Below the pieces are notes generated by a model, which worked only from the letters and a program-made list of their open reading frames with translations, did not search any database and was not told the DNA's origin. A stretch of DNA of 44,792 nt from a virus: positions 1 through 44,792 of the IMG/VR virus record IMGVR_UViG_3300020182_000062; one strand, 5' to 3'. Each line of letters begins with the position of its first letter. Within the stretch, counting starts at the first letter, position 1. This document shows positions 13,267 through 19,029 of the stretch, piece after piece. The translations under genes and the position numbers were made by a program.

Positions 13267-13293
13267 GGGAGACTTTCGGGTCTCCCTTTTTTT
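13267..13293. terminator. Bidirectional intrinsic terminator
   Basis: GGGAGAC (13267-13273) pairs with GTCTCCC (13280-13286) around a TTTCGG loop. It is followed by seven T on the plus strand; six A (13256-13261) lie just before it, giving a T run on the minus strand. It separates convergent gp32 and the tape-measure gene. Upstream, ATCCCC (13213-13218) or CCCCT (13240-13244) can pair alternatively with the AGGGGAT at 13231-13237. Confidence 0.9.
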
Positions 13294-15076
13294 ATCCTAA
13301 TCCCGCTAAACCCATAAGCATTGCGAATTCAGGGGGTGGTCCAGAATCCGATGCACCATCAAGAGCACCAGAATATGAATTATTAGTCACAGAAGTTTGA
13401 CTGTTATCCATAACAGTTCCTCCACCTGATAATCTTCTTGTTTCCTCTCTTTGTAATCTTTCTTGTTCTTCTAGTGCTGCCTGTTTGCGTTCTGATTCTT
13501 CTTTTAATTTTCTTGCTCTATCTGCTTCTTTTTTCTCAAGTCTTGCTTTTTCTGCTTCTGCAACTTCTTTTGCTATTCTTGCATCGGTTTCTGTTTGAGT
13601 CTCTACACCAACAAGTTTCTGTGCACCCTCAAATGCAGAATCACCAAAATTCATAACTCCATTGAAAGCATCAAAAAATGCTTCTTTAGGACTTTTACCT
13701 CCAGGAGTTATAGCAAGGACACCAGCAAGACCACCTGCTACTAATGCCAAAGGAAATCTCATTATCTTTGTGGATATCTGTGCTAATTTTATAGCAAGGT
13801 TAGCGAGTCCTGGACCCATCCCTTGATCAAAGGCACTAGTTATGTTTGAGAAAAATCCTACTATTTTGTCACTAATCGCATTAAAGAAGTCTCCTATCAT
13901 TGCCGTAAAAGAAAATCCTTTCAAATACTCTGCAGCATTGTTTAATCCAAACTTTCCAAGAATCCATGCAACGATACTTTTTAGAAGGTCAAGTGGATAA
14001 CCTACAATCGCTTTAAATGCGCCACCGATACCTCCTAGCACACCACCTACTAATTTAGAAAATATACTTCCGTCTTTACCATATCGATTAAATCCTTGTA
14101 TAGCACCCTTTACTGTTTCAAATATAGTAAATATAATTCTAAGTGGTGCGAATATTGCTCCAAACATTTTACCAATTACCCTAAATGGACCAAGCATTGC
14201 TTGAATTGAATTTTTAAATCCAGTAATCAGTTTTGATAACTTTCCTGCCCCTGAAGGTTTAGGTGGACCCGCTGGTTTTTTAAATTTGTCAAACATTCCT
14301 ATGAATTTTTGATAACCCCTCATTATGGCATTCATCCTGCCACTACCTTTTCTCATCTGTTGAAACTCTTTGGGACTCATTTGTTTCGCTATATTACTTA
14401 CTTCCTTACCATACACGTTTGGCATTTTTGCCATTTGATTTTGAGATACACCCGCCTTTGCTAGTGTGTTCATTTTATTGAATGATTTAGTTGGTTTTGC
14501 CTTTTTAGATGCTTCTTTGAATTTATCTATACCAAAAATCTTTGAATTGAACTTATTGATTTTATCAATTGAACCTCTTAAAAGACCTAACGAAAACTTT
14601 ACTGTAGCAAAACCACCTTTACCAAAAATCATTTTACCTAGACCAAGACTACCAAGTCCTGCAAGAAAGAGAAGAGGCGCTTTTATCAAACTATTTAAGA
14701 TTGAACCAAGAAATCCCAACATACCTTTTCGGTCTTTAGTCTCATCTTTTTCTTTAGGACTACTACCTTTACCCCCTTGATTTTCTTTAAGACCCTTTAA
14801 TGAAGCAAGTAATTCTTTTCTTTCTTCTTCTTCATCTCCCTTTTTCGCATTAAGGTCATCGAAATATTTACTAACCAAAGAAAAAATACTTTGGAGTTGC
14901 GAGGTGTGAGTTTCTCCAATTTTTAATTGAAGTATATCCGTGTTTAATGAGCGTTGTCTCTGTTCATTTGCCAGTAGGAGTGTCTGAGTAACTACATTCA
15001 GTTGTGTTGCGTTCAAAAGACTATCATTGCTTCCAAATGCGGGAATAGCAGTTCCGTTGGTGTCATCAATTGCCAT
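13292..15076 (-). CDS. Tail tape measure protein (gp29-like)
   Basis: A 594-residue protein, near the length of T4 gp29 (590). The N-terminal part is a helical, charged region (25-105) with coiled-coil character. The middle (about 115-460) has many Gly/Ala/Phe-rich hydrophobic segments such as LLFLAGLGSLGLGKMIFG and LIGKMFGAIFAPLRI-like stretches, typical of tape measures that insert into membranes during DNA injection. A charged coiled coil follows (about 495-545). It lies directly downstream of gp26 and its frameshift extension, where tape-measure genes lie in most tailed phages. The start has AAGGT upstream. Its length would set tail length. Confidence 0.75.
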   Translation of the reverse strand: MAIDDTNGTAIPAFGSNDSLLNATQLNVVTQTLLLANEQRQRSLNTDILQLKIGETHTSQLQSIFSLVSKYFDDLNAKKGDEEEERKELLASLKGLKENQGGKGSSPKEKDETKDRKGMLGFLGSILNSLIKAPLLFLAGLGSLGLGKMIFGKGGFATVKFSLGLLRGSIDKINKFNSKIFGIDKFKEASKKAKPTKSFNKMNTLAKAGVSQNQMAKMPNVYGKEVSNIAKQMSPKEFQQMRKGSGRMNAIMRGYQKFIGMFDKFKKPAGPPKPSGAGKLSKLITGFKNSIQAMLGPFRVIGKMFGAIFAPLRIIFTIFETVKGAIQGFNRYGKDGSIFSKLVGGVLGGIGGAFKAIVGYPLDLLKSIVAWILGKFGLNNAAEYLKGFSFTAMIGDFFNAISDKIVGFFSNITSAFDQGMGPGLANLAIKLAQISTKIMRFPLALVAGGLAGVLAITPGGKSPKEAFFDAFNGVMNFGDSAFEGAQKLVGVETQTETDARIAKEVAEAEKARLEKKEADRARKLKEESERKQAALEEQERLQREETRRLSGGGTVMDNSQTSVTNNSYSGALDGASDSGPPPEFAMLMGLAGLG

Positions 15077-15085
15077 GTGTTTACC

Positions 15086-15280
15086 TTATGCGCTCGTCTT
15101 ATTCATTTTTTCCTGTTCTTGTGCCTCTTTTTCGAGATGTTGTTCTAATAACATTAAATAAACTTCTCTTTCCCACGGATGCATATTTTCAATATCATGT
15201 AACGAATATTTAAAATGCTGCATCAAAGCAAAATTAGTTTTAAAATGAGAAACTAAATTGTCATGCGAGAGGCATACTAA
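15086..15280 (-). CDS. Predicted -1 frameshift extension of gp26 (tail assembly chaperone T-like)
   Basis: After the slippery T TTT TTT at 15280-15286, the -1 frame reads 64 codons to TAA at 15086-15088, 9 bp before the tape-measure start. The predicted extension begins LVCLSHDNLVSHFK and continues through NFALMQHFKYSLHDIENMHP, WEREVYLMLLEQHL and a charged helix. An independent start is unlikely: the first in-frame ATG (MQHF) lacks a ribosome site and would drop the first 19 codons. The fused protein would be 300 residues. An overlapping frame between a chaperone gene and the tape measure is the standard layout of lambda G/GT-type systems. Use of the shift is inferred. Confidence 0.7.
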   Translation of the reverse strand, partial: LVCLSHDNLVSHFKTNFALMQHFKYSLHDIENMHPWEREVYLMLLEQHLEKEAQEQEKMNKTSA

Positions 15281-15987
15281 AAAAAATCTTGAAGACCCTC
15301 CAATGTTAATTTATTCTCATGTCCACACTTTTTACAGGTGAACTCTACTTTTTGTTTTAATGACGGAATAGTTCCAAGAAAATCTCCGAGTTTTTCGAAC
15401 TGAAGTGATGTCATTGAGTTAATGAATTCATCCATTTCTTTTTGTGACCATTCTGTTATTCTTTCGTTGGGTGTAAGAATTGCTAATATGCAATGATTGA
15501 TCAGACTTAAACCGTATTCTGATTCAGACATACCCTGAGAAAAGTTTGACATAAAAGCATTGTAAGAAGGATATCTTAATTCTATAGATATTTCTGGATT
15601 TATCTCTACAATATTACTAATGTCTTTAGGTGGTGTCGGAATATCTATACTGCTTAATTCTATAGTAACATCTGTTTTTCCGTCACAATCTTTTGCAGAA
15701 CAAACTCCATTTAATGTAGAAGTTTCTCCGACTGACTTTGCCCTTATCATTGTAAATAGATACTCAACATCAAAAGAGGTGAGTGAATCAATATCGACAT
15801 TGTCATATATACAAGCAACTACAGTATCGAGCATTGCTCTCATCGCTGTTTTTTCATCATTTGATTCATGCGCTTGTAAAAGTATTTTTTCTTCTTTCAC
15901 TAGATATGGTCTGTATGTTACGACCTTCATGGTTGAAGGTATTTGTACCTCATATCTAACTGATTCATTTAACTTAGGTAGTGCCAT
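15277..15987 (-). CDS. gp26: Baseplate hub/tail assembly protein gp26
   Basis: A 236-residue protein of the T4 gp26 type (about 208 in T4). It opens MALPKLNESVRYEVQIPST, then KVVTYRPYLVKEEKILLQA, the family's hallmark. Two Cys pairs, GVCSAKDC near 120-127 and CKKC near the C-terminus, could bind zinc. In T4, gp26 is listed as a hub assembly protein. Here its position before the tape measure, and a slippery site at its last codons (GAT TTT TTT TAG), point to a tail-assembly chaperone role. It has CGGAGAA before the start and a minus-strand late promoter at 16022-16029. Confidence 0.82.
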   Translation of the reverse strand: MALPKLNESVRYEVQIPSTMKVVTYRPYLVKEEKILLQAHESNDEKTAMRAMLDTVVACIYDNVDIDSLTSFDVEYLFTMIRAKSVGETSTLNGVCSAKDCDGKTDVTIELSSIDIPTPPKDISNIVEINPEISIELRYPSYNAFMSNFSQGMSESEYGLSLINHCILAILTPNERITEWSQKEMDEFINSMTSLQFEKLGDFLGTIPSLKQKVEFTCKKCGHENKLTLEGLQDFF

Positions 15988-16035: not shown

Positions 16036-16752
16036 TTAAAAGATTTTTCTCATAACGCCGCCAAGAAGTGCCTCGCCAATCTGACTCCCTCTTCCTTTGT
16101 CATATTTTGATACAGTTTTAAATTTCTTGAACGATAGTTGTACTGTTTGTTTAAGTAATGTTGATTCTGACGCTCCACCCATAGTAATCTCTGACATACT
16201 ATAAGGAAAACAATCTTCAAGTTCAATCTCATATATTATATCATCACTTGTGATAAAATTTAAATCGAACTGCCCTTGAGCAAAATCTAGTGGACCAAGT
16301 CTCGGAAGTCTTGACCTTATAGAACTTGGTATTTTACCAGCATTAAATAATTTCTTCTTTGTGATATCAAACGCAACACCCTTTCTTAGAACTTGGATTA
16401 TTACAGGTTTAACATAACTTTTATTATATCTTAATGTTTTGTTTTGAGAATCATATGCTGTTCGTTGCCATGCTTCAAAATAATATCTTGACCCAAAATC
16501 GTTAAGAAGAATAAACGAAAGATTAATATCCATATGTGAATCGCCATAAGCAACCTTGAATGTGTTATCCATCCCCATTTGAACTTCTCTTGTAGTAATT
16601 TGTCTGCTAGGTAAAACTACATCAGTACACAATATATCCATACTTCTATTTTCGCCGTTTACTGTAGGCAGTTTAACTCTATATAAATTAGAGTCTGCTA
16701 GACCTCCACCTTTACCGATTTCTGATAAAATATCATCTACCCGTTGTGCCAT
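16036..16752 (-). CDS. Tail-tube-fold baseplate protein (gp54/gp19-like)
   Basis: A 238-residue protein. DILCTDVVLPSRQITTREVQ at about 39-58 and DINLSFILLNDFGSRYYFEAW at about 75-95 are the gp19/gp54 tail-tube fold pattern, with a late YEIELEDCFPYSMSEITM and a final beta strand (TVQLSFKKF). In T4, gp54 starts tube assembly on gp48 and is a paralogue of tube protein gp19. Because it sits with gp26, the tape measure and gp48 rather than beside a sheath gene, gp54 is preferred. T4 gp54 is longer (320), so identity as gp54 is moderate. Confidence 0.65.
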   Translation of the reverse strand: MAQRVDDILSEIGKGGGLADSNLYRVKLPTVNGENRSMDILCTDVVLPSRQITTREVQMGMDNTFKVAYGDSHMDINLSFILLNDFGSRYYFEAWQRTAYDSQNKTLRYNKSYVKPVIIQVLRKGVAFDITKKKLFNAGKIPSSIRSRLPRLGPLDFAQGQFDLNFITSDDIIYEIELEDCFPYSMSEITMGGASESTLLKQTVQLSFKKFKTVSKYDKGRGSQIGEALLGGVMRKIF

Positions 16753-16755
16753 TTT

Positions 16756-17334
16756 TTAACCTATCATCTTTCTTGAGTCTGAGTATGCAGTAAGAGCATT
16801 TGGAATTTTCTTGAAACTTGCTACAGGAAGGAATGCTGCTATCTCCCAATCTGTGGCAGGAACCTGTGCAAAACTACTTTTAACATTTGATGTTAAATAA
16901 TGTTTAAAACAAGGTTTATAGTATTTTAAATTTGCTGTTGATTTAAGAGTACTATATGTAATGTTAAATTTTGCGGTAGGTGAGTTTTTACTTGATGCAA
17001 TATCCATTAACCCGTCTAGCATCTTTGCTCGTAACATAGGATTAATGTAGTGTAGGTTTAATCCATAGAAACCCTTTGGTGCAGGTCCAACTATAACAAC
17101 TAAAGGGAAGGTGTCATAATACGGTAATGTGTCTTTTGTCTTTGGGTCGTAAAAGAACATCTGCATCGTTCCGACTATATCCCCACCAGTAGGTAACTCT
17201 CCCATTAATGCGTTACGATTAATTCCTCGTAAATCTCTTGCACGTTGGCGAAACCATTTACGTGATTCCGCAGTACGAGGTGTTACTCCCGCTCGGAATG
17301 CTTCTTGTGATAGGGTATCGAATATCTTACTCAT
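16756..17334 (-). CDS. Putative gp2-like DNA end protector protein
   Basis: A 192-residue protein. It has a basic N-terminus (SRKWFRQRARDL), then GTMQMFFYDPKTKDTLPYYD, TFPLVVIVGPAPKGFYGLNL, and HYINPMLRAKMLDGL. This compact domain is shared among marine T4-like phages. The gene is adjacent to gp4 as gene 2 is in T4, which supports the gp2 assignment. T4 gp2 binds packaged DNA ends and blocks RecBCD; it is longer (about 270). No ribosome site is visible, and a minus-strand TATAAATA lies so close that the transcript would be leaderless. The function is tentative. Confidence 0.5.
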   Translation of the reverse strand: MSKIFDTLSQEAFRAGVTPRTAESRKWFRQRARDLRGINRNALMGELPTGGDIVGTMQMFFYDPKTKDTLPYYDTFPLVVIVGPAPKGFYGLNLHYINPMLRAKMLDGLMDIASSKNSPTAKFNITYSTLKSTANLKYYKPCFKHYLTSNVKSSFAQVPATDWEIAAFLPVASFKKIPNALTAYSDSRKMIG

Positions 17335-17348: not shown

Positions 17349-17834
17349 CTATTTTTTACGACGTTTGAAAGGTTTTATTGGTTTTAATGGTTTGGTTGAC
17401 TTAGGTATAATAGACTTCAAGGGTTCGTTCTTCTCAGTCCATATTATAAACTCCCAACCTCTGTCCTTGGCATATTCTTCTGCTGCTTCCCATTTGTTCA
17501 CGTTCTTAATATAAGTCAAACTCTCGTTGAGGTATCTCTTTGTTCTGCGTCCACCCTTGGGAGGTCTAGTTTGTCCATCAGGTTTTATCTCTACAAGGAA
17601 CGTCTTACCCTGTTTAGTTGAAAGTTTCAAGTCCATAAAGTATCGGTGGTACTTCTTATCTACTTCATATAGATATGGTATAACAACTTCTTCGGATGAC
17701 CACTTGATTATATTAGGGTTGTCGTCGCACCATTTAAAGGCATGTCGTTCCCATAGAGAACGATAGATAACCTTGGTTGGGTCACCTTCATACTTAGATG
17801 GATTTTTTACTGAATATCTTCCAGAATATGCCAT
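17349..17834 (-). CDS. gp4: Head completion protein gp4
   Basis: A 161-residue protein (T4 gp4 is 150). The start at 17834 is chosen because MAYSGRYSVKNPSKYEGDP is the family N-terminus, while the longer frame upstream is hydrophobic and overlaps the divergent gene. It keeps a PD-(D/E)xK-like nuclease pattern: Glu29 in YRSLWERHAFKWCD, Asp68 in RYFMDLKL, and Glu82-Ile-Lys84 in FLVEIKP, as in TnsA-like folds. gp4 is needed for head completion after packaging and may trim or hold DNA ends. The C-terminus is a Lys/Pro repeat (STKPLKPIKPFKRRKK), probably DNA-binding. A weak ACTAAATA lies at 17870-17877 (minus). Confidence 0.85.
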   Translation of the reverse strand: MAYSGRYSVKNPSKYEGDPTKVIYRSLWERHAFKWCDDNPNIIKWSSEEVVIPYLYEVDKKYHRYFMDLKLSTKQGKTFLVEIKPDGQTRPPKGGRRTKRYLNESLTYIKNVNKWEAAEEYAKDRGWEFIIWTEKNEPLKSIIPKSTKPLKPIKPFKRRKK

Positions 17835-17842
17835 AAAAACCT

Positions 17843-17850
17843 TATAAATA
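17843..17850 (+). promoter_or_regulatory. T4-type late promoter for the baseplate operon
   Basis: Exact TATAAATA, with a start expected at about 17856 and a 34-base leader to gp48 at 17890. It lies in the 55-bp divergent region between gp4 and gp48. Confidence 0.8.
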
Positions 17851-17853
17851 GAC

Positions 17854-17882
17854 TTGACGAATATAAAACTATTTAGTAAAGT
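17854..17882 (+). promoter_or_regulatory. Possible sigma70-type promoter overlapping the gp48 leader
   Basis: TTGACG (17854-17859), 17-bp spacer, TAAAGT (17877-17882), seven bases before the gp48 ATG. It is weaker than the other promoters in the window and may be chance. Confidence 0.35.
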
Positions 17883-17889
17883 AATAAAG

Positions 17890-19029
17890 ATGGCATCAAT
17901 ATATAACAACTATATGGTTGACAAAAATGGTAACTTAGTCGACCGACGTAATGTTTATGGGGAGGAAGGTAGTGAAATAAAAACAGAGAAAACACCAATT
18001 CAGAGATTTTCTGAGTCAGGTTATATAAGAAATACCTTCCCACAAAATTTAAAAAGTGATGGTAATAAGACCTATATAAGGTTTGAGGTTATTGATGAGA
18101 AACCAGTAATGCTAGGTGATTTAGGGGGTTTGGTTAAACCTATGTTAACAGAAATTGTTGACCTCGCAGATGACTTCAGTGAAGCAGTTCAGAATACAAA
18201 TGGTTTAGGGTTGTTTGTAAATCTTGGATTATCTTTTGCGGACCGCGCTGCAGAATTATCACAGAGTAAGACTACACAAGACCGAGACATAATGCTCCCT
18301 GTGAAGGGCGACCAATATGTGGAAATATACATGCCTGAAGGAATAGTTTATGGAGGTAGTGTACAGTATAAAGGTGTGGATTTAGGTCGTGCTGGCGCTC
18401 TCGGTGTTTCTGCGTTACAAACTGGCAAAAACCCTTTAACCGCAATGTTAAATTCAGGAGTGACTACATTGGCACGTGGGTTAAAAGGTGCTGCTAATAG
18501 CGCATCAACAAACCTTGCCGTTAATCAGATTTTACAAAACTTCAGTAGTGATGATTTTGATACAACAATAGTTAAAAAAGTAGCGAATGTTGCTTCTCAA
18601 GTTACAGTAAATCCAAATACAAGACAAACTTTTGAGCATGTAGACACTCGTTCATTTTCGTTTTCGTTTACTATGATTCCTACCTCAAAAAATGAGTCAA
18701 TGGCAATTAAAGATATTGTTAAATTTTTCCGTACACAACTATATCCGGAATCAATTGATGAAGCAGGAATTAGTATGGGTTATAAATATCCAGAAAGATT
18801 TTATATACACATGATGTATGAAGGTAAAAGAGTATTTCATAAAATAAAACCAGCATATTTAACTGCTGCAGAAGTTAAGTATAATGGTGGTAAGCAAGTA
18901 TTCTTCAATGAAGGTGATGAAGTTGAACCTTATCAAACTGAATTGACTTTATCGTTTACAGAATCTACTCAGTTAGTAAGACAAGACATAAAAGGCGACC
19001 CTGAATCAACAGACCCAAGAGGATTTTAA
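17890..19029 (+). CDS. gp48: Baseplate tail-tube cap protein gp48
   Basis: A 379-residue protein from the start at 17890 (T4 gp48 is 364). The late promoter at 17843 rules out the longer frame from 17854. The N-terminus ASIYNNYMVDKNGNLVDRRN precedes TYIRFEVIDEKPVMLGDLGG. The middle contains QYVEIYMPEGIVYGGSVQYK. The C-terminal domain (TFEHVDTRSFSFSFTMIPTS; YPERFYIHMMYEGKRVFH) has the tube-like beta fold. gp48 sits on the hub-wedge dome and nucleates the tube with gp54. It is followed directly by gp53 with no gap. Confidence 0.8.
   Translation: MASIYNNYMVDKNGNLVDRRNVYGEEGSEIKTEKTPIQRFSESGYIRNTFPQNLKSDGNKTYIRFEVIDEKPVMLGDLGGLVKPMLTEIVDLADDFSEAVQNTNGLGLFVNLGLSFADRAAELSQSKTTQDRDIMLPVKGDQYVEIYMPEGIVYGGSVQYKGVDLGRAGALGVSALQTGKNPLTAMLNSGVTTLARGLKGAANSASTNLAVNQILQNFSSDDFDTTIVKKVANVASQVTVNPNTRQTFEHVDTRSFSFSFTMIPTSKNESMAIKDIVKFFRTQLYPESIDEAGISMGYKYPERFYIHMMYEGKRVFHKIKPAYLTAAEVKYNGGKQVFFNEGDEVEPYQTELTLSFTESTQLVRQDIKGDPESTDPRGF

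Follow-up and report, generated by a model that had tools for sequence, protein, structure and literature searches.

A predicted -1 frameshift joins gp26 to a gp51-type extension upstream of a putative tape measure gene in an uncultured marine T4-like phage

Tail assembly chaperone pairs in lambda and in T4-like phages

Just upstream of its tape measure gene, phage lambda encodes a short protein (G) and a -1 frameshift extension of it (GT), with G_GGA_AAG as the slippery site. For T4, Vladimirov, Gautam and Davidson are said to have assigned the tail assembly chaperone (TAC) pair to genes 26 and 51. Their study is described as identifying the tail assembly chaperone genes of T4-like phages (Vladimirov, Gautam & Davidson, Virology 2022, doi 10.1016/j.virol.2021.11.003) and is cited in the PRFect paper (PMC10885494) for T4-like phages in which a short TAC gene is accompanied by a longer, fused one, and in the Adele paper (PMC12846349, 2025) for poly-T -1 slippery sites in T4-like TAC-N genes. 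According to these citations, the frameshifted TAC arrangement has been in print for T4-like phages since 2022, and we describe here a previously unassigned case. Since the main conclusion is in print, the value of the present analysis lies mainly in the annotation and in the evidence from cis signals and phylogeny.

The stretch of DNA analyzed (IMG/VR record IMGVR_UViG_3300020182_000062, 44,792 nt; hereafter the window) belongs to an uncultured marine phage in which the genes were not annotated as TACs. It shares with the set of Vladimirov et al., as cited, the TAC pair and the poly-T -1 slippery site in the TAC-N gene, and it differs from that set in its source and annotation; the present analysis adds the Shine-Dalgarno (SD)-like element, a structure profile and a tree. 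The likeness to lambda G/GT lies in a short protein with a predicted -1 frameshift extension just 5' of a putative tape measure gene, but the heptamer of the window is T_TTT_TTT and its protein is larger and contains Cys pairs. The domains are homologous to those of T4 gp26 (TAC-N) and gp51 (a TAC-N paralogue plus the extension), whereas T4 encodes them in two separate, divergent genes without a heptamer. The TACs of the Vandenendeviridae and Andersonviridae (PMC12846349) are likewise myovirus proteins with a -1 frameshift at a T-rich site; their site, however, is GTTTTT, as in phage BX-1 (Ackermannviridae).

We consider it very likely that gp26 of the window is TAC-N and that an SD-assisted -1 slip on T_TTT_TTT yields TAC-NC with a ‘gp51’ domain, both forms together being the chaperone pair of the tape measure protein. 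A preliminary description of the locus had predicted such a frameshift and had drawn the analogy with G/GT. Frameshifting is the best reading of the conserved signals and of the selection in the -1 frame, and the analogy with G/GT holds. That description had overlooked that the extension corresponds to annotated gp51 (PHROG 634), that T4 encodes both forms as genes 26 and 51, and that the assignment had appeared in 2022.

The gp26 gene and its -1 frame extension

The gp26 gene (15277-15987, minus strand) is an open reading frame of 236 codons, whose product contains two Cys-x(n)-Cys pairs and matches PF12322 (T4_baseplate, 9.7e-53) and PHROG 150 (7.7e-54). Its 3' end reads CTT CAA GAT TTT TTT TAG. 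As described before, it contains a perfect heptamer T_TTT_TTT (15286-15280, minus strand), in phase for simultaneous -1 slippage and followed by the 0-frame stop TAG (15279-15277, minus strand) that closes TAC-N. An in-phase T_TTT_TTN occurs once in 12,004 codons of the main ORFs of the window.

The -1 frame extension, or TAC-C (15280-15086, minus strand), comprises 64 open codons (15280-15089) and a TAA stop (15088-15086); the next ATG, at 15076, follows after 9 nt, again in agreement with the preliminary description. Fusion to gp26 gives a predicted TAC-NC of 300 aa with the junction peptide ...LQDFFLVCLSHD..., by which the exact fusion junction is now defined for detection. The extension, described before as protein-like, matches PHROG 634 (‘baseplate hub assembly catalyst’, gp51; 8e-25) and also the C-terminus of PHROG 150 (8.5e-8). 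At 36% G+C, an open run of this length is no great rarity (iid P about 0.008 for 64 codons), so that a chance ORF 3' of the T run might be considered; this reading has a negligible probability, as it is refuted by the conservation of frame, peptide and heptamer over several phage families. In pairs of related extensions, codon positions 1, 2 and 3 of the -1 frame take 30, 14 and 56% of the differences, the median dN/dS in this frame is 0.13, and pN/pS is 0.23 versus 0.95 and 2.05 in the other two frames, which contain 4-6 stops in this region. Purifying selection acts on the extension only as read in the -1 frame.

The extension has its own CDS in the GenBank records of P-SSM2, OLIVR5, phiM9, P10VF and others, and in some relatives (e.g., V09 and Cr30) an ATG overlaps the gp26 stop, which would fit a small gene in its own right (gp51), with translation beginning at a dedicated start codon or through reinitiation at that stop. 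An overlapping ATG is not general, however, and in the window the earliest -1-frame starts (TTG/ATG) are those of the conserved FALM motif, well within the extension, and inspection by eye shows nothing SD-like upstream of them, in agreement with the earlier remark that the extension lacks a ribosome site of its own. Moreover, the conservation starts 5' of any start codon and includes the heptamer, and in T4 a gp26 paralogue carries the same domain as an in-frame part. As no start is suitably placed in the window, we prefer ribosomal slippage to independent translation and regard the latter as quite improbable. The ‘gp51, baseplate hub assembly catalyst’ of cyanophages and other marine T4-like phages would then mostly be a frameshift extension mis-called as a gene.

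Conservation and cis signals of the slippery site

Among the 98 gp26 loci scored, 94 contain an in-phase T_TTT_TTN; they comprise all 80 IMG/VR relatives and loci from Kyanoviridae, Pootjesviridae, Cr30, Menderavirus and the KVP40/Aeh1 branches of Straboviridae. The layout proposed for the window is shared by relatives in several families, as the preliminary description had thought possible. A homologous -1 extension accompanies the heptamer in the 80 IMG/VR relatives (in a few of which the contig end cuts the extension) and in P-SSM2, Mosig and C48C1, and the +1 frame closes within 13 codons in the IMG/VR relatives while the -1 frame is conserved. The layout is common to Schizotequatrovirus, Cinqassovirus, Ishigurovirus, Pootjesviridae, Emdodecavirus, Cr30 and Menderavirus, and the heptamer and extension likewise occur in phiM7 and Moby. 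The four loci without the heptamer are Ackermannviridae or look-alikes (BX-1, 2050H1, K476, and K445), in which GTTTTT, GTTTTC or CTTTTT replaces the canonical heptamer and the -1 extension is kept. The comparison of extension and slippery site across relatives, as suggested in the preliminary description, shows conserved heptamers and a conserved -1 frame.

Two side observations concern these relatives. The -1 extensions of the Ackermannviridae and look-alikes (loci L093, L094, L095, and L103) have a conserved PWH-type motif. In Pelagibacter phage Mosig (L004:3306-4037), the heptamer lies 31 nt 5' of the gp26 stop instead of the usual 7-13 nt, and the short form therefore acquires a small unrelated tail.

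All 65 distinct loci have the same base 1 in the heptamer and the same first Phe codon (TTT), although the choice of codons for Asp and Phe is variable in the rest of gp26. The window has eight consecutive Ts, and long homopolymers can make RNA polymerase slip, so the -1 product might also be made by transcriptional instead of ribosomal slippage. Yet 27 of the 65 distinct loci have just six Ts (TTTTTTC/A/G) with the phase kept, and the conserved features, i.e., the in-phase heptamer, the SD-like element and the downstream structure, all act on ribosomes. Based on the loci with six Ts only, ribosomal slippage is favored, and a transcriptional origin appears extremely unlikely.

The probable upstream stimulator is an SD-like GGAGGG (15296-15301, minus strand) located 9 nt 5' of the heptamer; it is perfect in the window, with an anti-SD duplex of -9.5 kcal/mol. 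Over the final 150 nt of gp26, pairing with the 16S anti-SD has a single peak, 9-10 nt 5' of the heptamer, with a mean of -5.84 kcal/mol over the 65 loci versus a background of -0.55. The conserved Leu-(Glu/Lys/Arg)-Gly peptide accounts for part of this signal. Synonymous-codon shuffles give -4.53 ± 0.18 kcal/mol (null minimum -4.99), none of 300 reaching the observed value, and where the key codon encodes Glu, GAG and GAA are used in a ratio of 20:3 versus an overall usage of 32:68. The SD-like element exceeds the synonymous-codon expectation, the effect size being approximate because related loci are not independent.

Many relatives also have a localized RNA structure downstream: the folding z-score is lowest for segments whose first base lies 0-30 nt from the heptamer, with a mean of -1.97 at +12 versus -0.42 in control segments. 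In the window itself, no stable downstream structure was found (folding z +0.44). An apparent trade-off between the SD-like element and structure (rho -0.52, 65 loci) fell to -0.19 (p 0.28) on 35 clusters at 80% and was dropped.

In the mechanism that we propose, a minority of ribosomes would slip back one base on T_TTT_TTT, assisted by the GGAGGG element, and would read the 64 further codons in the -1 frame, giving a TAC-NC with a C-terminal ‘gp51’ domain. Like lambda G and GT, the two forms, made in a fixed proportion, would then coat the product of the next gene, the putative tape measure protein, and guide it.

The chaperone role and the neighboring genes

The putative tape measure gene (13292-15076, minus strand) encodes 594 aa, compared with 590 aa for T4 gp29. 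The preliminary description had called its start the tape measure ATG; place and size are right, but the family assignment finds no strong match in Pfam/PHROG-type searches (best tape-measure match phrog_5448, E 0.87), and pairwise BLASTP of the 594-aa ORF against the ORFs at the same place in Cr30 and P-SSM2 gave nothing. We therefore call it a tape measure protein by position and size only. Upstream of gp26, on the same strand and in the same order, are a tail tube or baseplate tube initiator-like gene (16036-16752; PHROG 45, tail tube, 1.5e-26) and a gp2-like DNA end protector gene (16756-17334; PHROG 429, 6.6e-46), both on the minus strand. This local gene order is shared with C48C1, Aeh1, phiM9, and P10VF. 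A gp4-like head closure gene at 17349-17909 of the window also matches a TnsA-like endonuclease N-terminal domain (PF08722, 1.3e-18).

The TAC role of gp26 is inferred from this layout, from homology and from T4 data summarized in a review (PMC3004832). Alternatively, gp26 could be a structural subunit of the hub and the frameshift product a hub variant, as the database name ‘baseplate hub’ suggests and as genetic work cited in the same review, which places gp26 in the hub, would support. The review, however, also counts gp26 and gp51 among the hub assembly chaperones and reports that gp51 is required yet absent from the particle; in addition, the short/long layout lies just 5' of the putative tape measure gene, and TACs have been assigned in T4-like phages by published work. 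A structural role is thus improbable. The preliminary description had noted that T4-like gp26 is usually described as a hub assembly protein and not as a frameshifting chaperone; this contrast is one of naming.

The AlphaFold2 model of the window gp26 has a pLDDT of 85.9 and a pTM of 0.82. In a fold search of this model against the PDB, the HK97 TAC (2ob9) ranks 8-9 with a non-significant score (E 1.5, prob 0.20-0.25, TM 0.38-0.39 by target), and a PDB sequence search with T4 gp26 and gp51 returned no meaningful match. A T4-like gp51, which has the extension in frame, was modeled with a pLDDT of 85.6, the extension being mainly helical at about 61-72.

Genes 26 and 51 in the T4 lineage

T4 gp51 consists of a gp26-type domain (3.9e-52) followed by the same extension in frame, and T4 gp26 has no extension. 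Profile comparisons with hhalign relate T4-type gp26 to marine gp26 (E 3.8e-19), gp26 to gp51 (E 6.4e-23), and the gp51 C-terminus to the marine -1 extension (E 2.8e-9). The heptamer is absent from T4, where genes 26 and 51 are separate and divergently transcribed; a divergent arrangement is found in T4, Thanatos, phiP4-3, KARL-1, Aeromonas 31, and SFHK24. The T4-type arrangement of two genes was not found in the window, a 44.8-kb fragment of the phage with one gp26 match and its -1 extension; a second gene may lie elsewhere in the phage.

In a tree of the shared domain, T4-type gp26 and gp51 group in one clade (99/94), as do the gp51 sequences among themselves (100/99), whereas the branching on the gp26 side is uncertain because two gp26 branches (Aeromonas 31 and RB43) are long. 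All frameshifting genes and the Ackermannviridae type fall outside the T4-type gp26/gp51 clade. Since the T4-type proteins form one clade, a single duplication in the T4 lineage probably replaced the frameshift. This would illustrate how gene duplication can take the place of recoding: a ribosomal slip would yield in one lineage the two proteins that T4 encodes in separate genes. Phage RB43 (L102:2501-4187) has genes 51-26-25 in tandem on one strand (named by homology, with 26 and 51 confirmed in the record), a possible intermediate between a tandem duplication and the divergent T4 arrangement.

A more speculative and rather unlikely scenario would derive the T4 hub assembly genes from one frameshifting TAC: a single duplication would have frozen genes 26 and 51, gp28, encoded just 5' of the T4 tape measure gene, would perhaps be a third copy, and the ancestral site would have combined an SD-like element with downstream structure, the clade of the window using the SD-like element alone.

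For T4-type gp28, the distal hub subunit, hhalign gives a weak, collinear match with the N-terminal domain of T4-type gp26 (E 2e-4, prob 46%, 102 columns), and T4 gp26 also matches the gp28 PHROG (9e-4), the T4 genes 28 and 26 being located at L002:5849-6382 and L002:3303-3929, respectively. No similarity of T4-type gp28 to marine gp26 was seen in the profile comparison. gp28 may be a third, diverged gp26 paralogue. In Citrobacter phage Moon (L117:16607-18245), gp27/gp28 carry the annotation of a ‘GT-like’ tape measure chaperone fusion, which looks misassigned; gp26/gp51 are indicated instead. A T4-like gp51 gene in an IMG/VR contig (L115:2001-2746) has a disrupted reading frame, perhaps through an assembly error.
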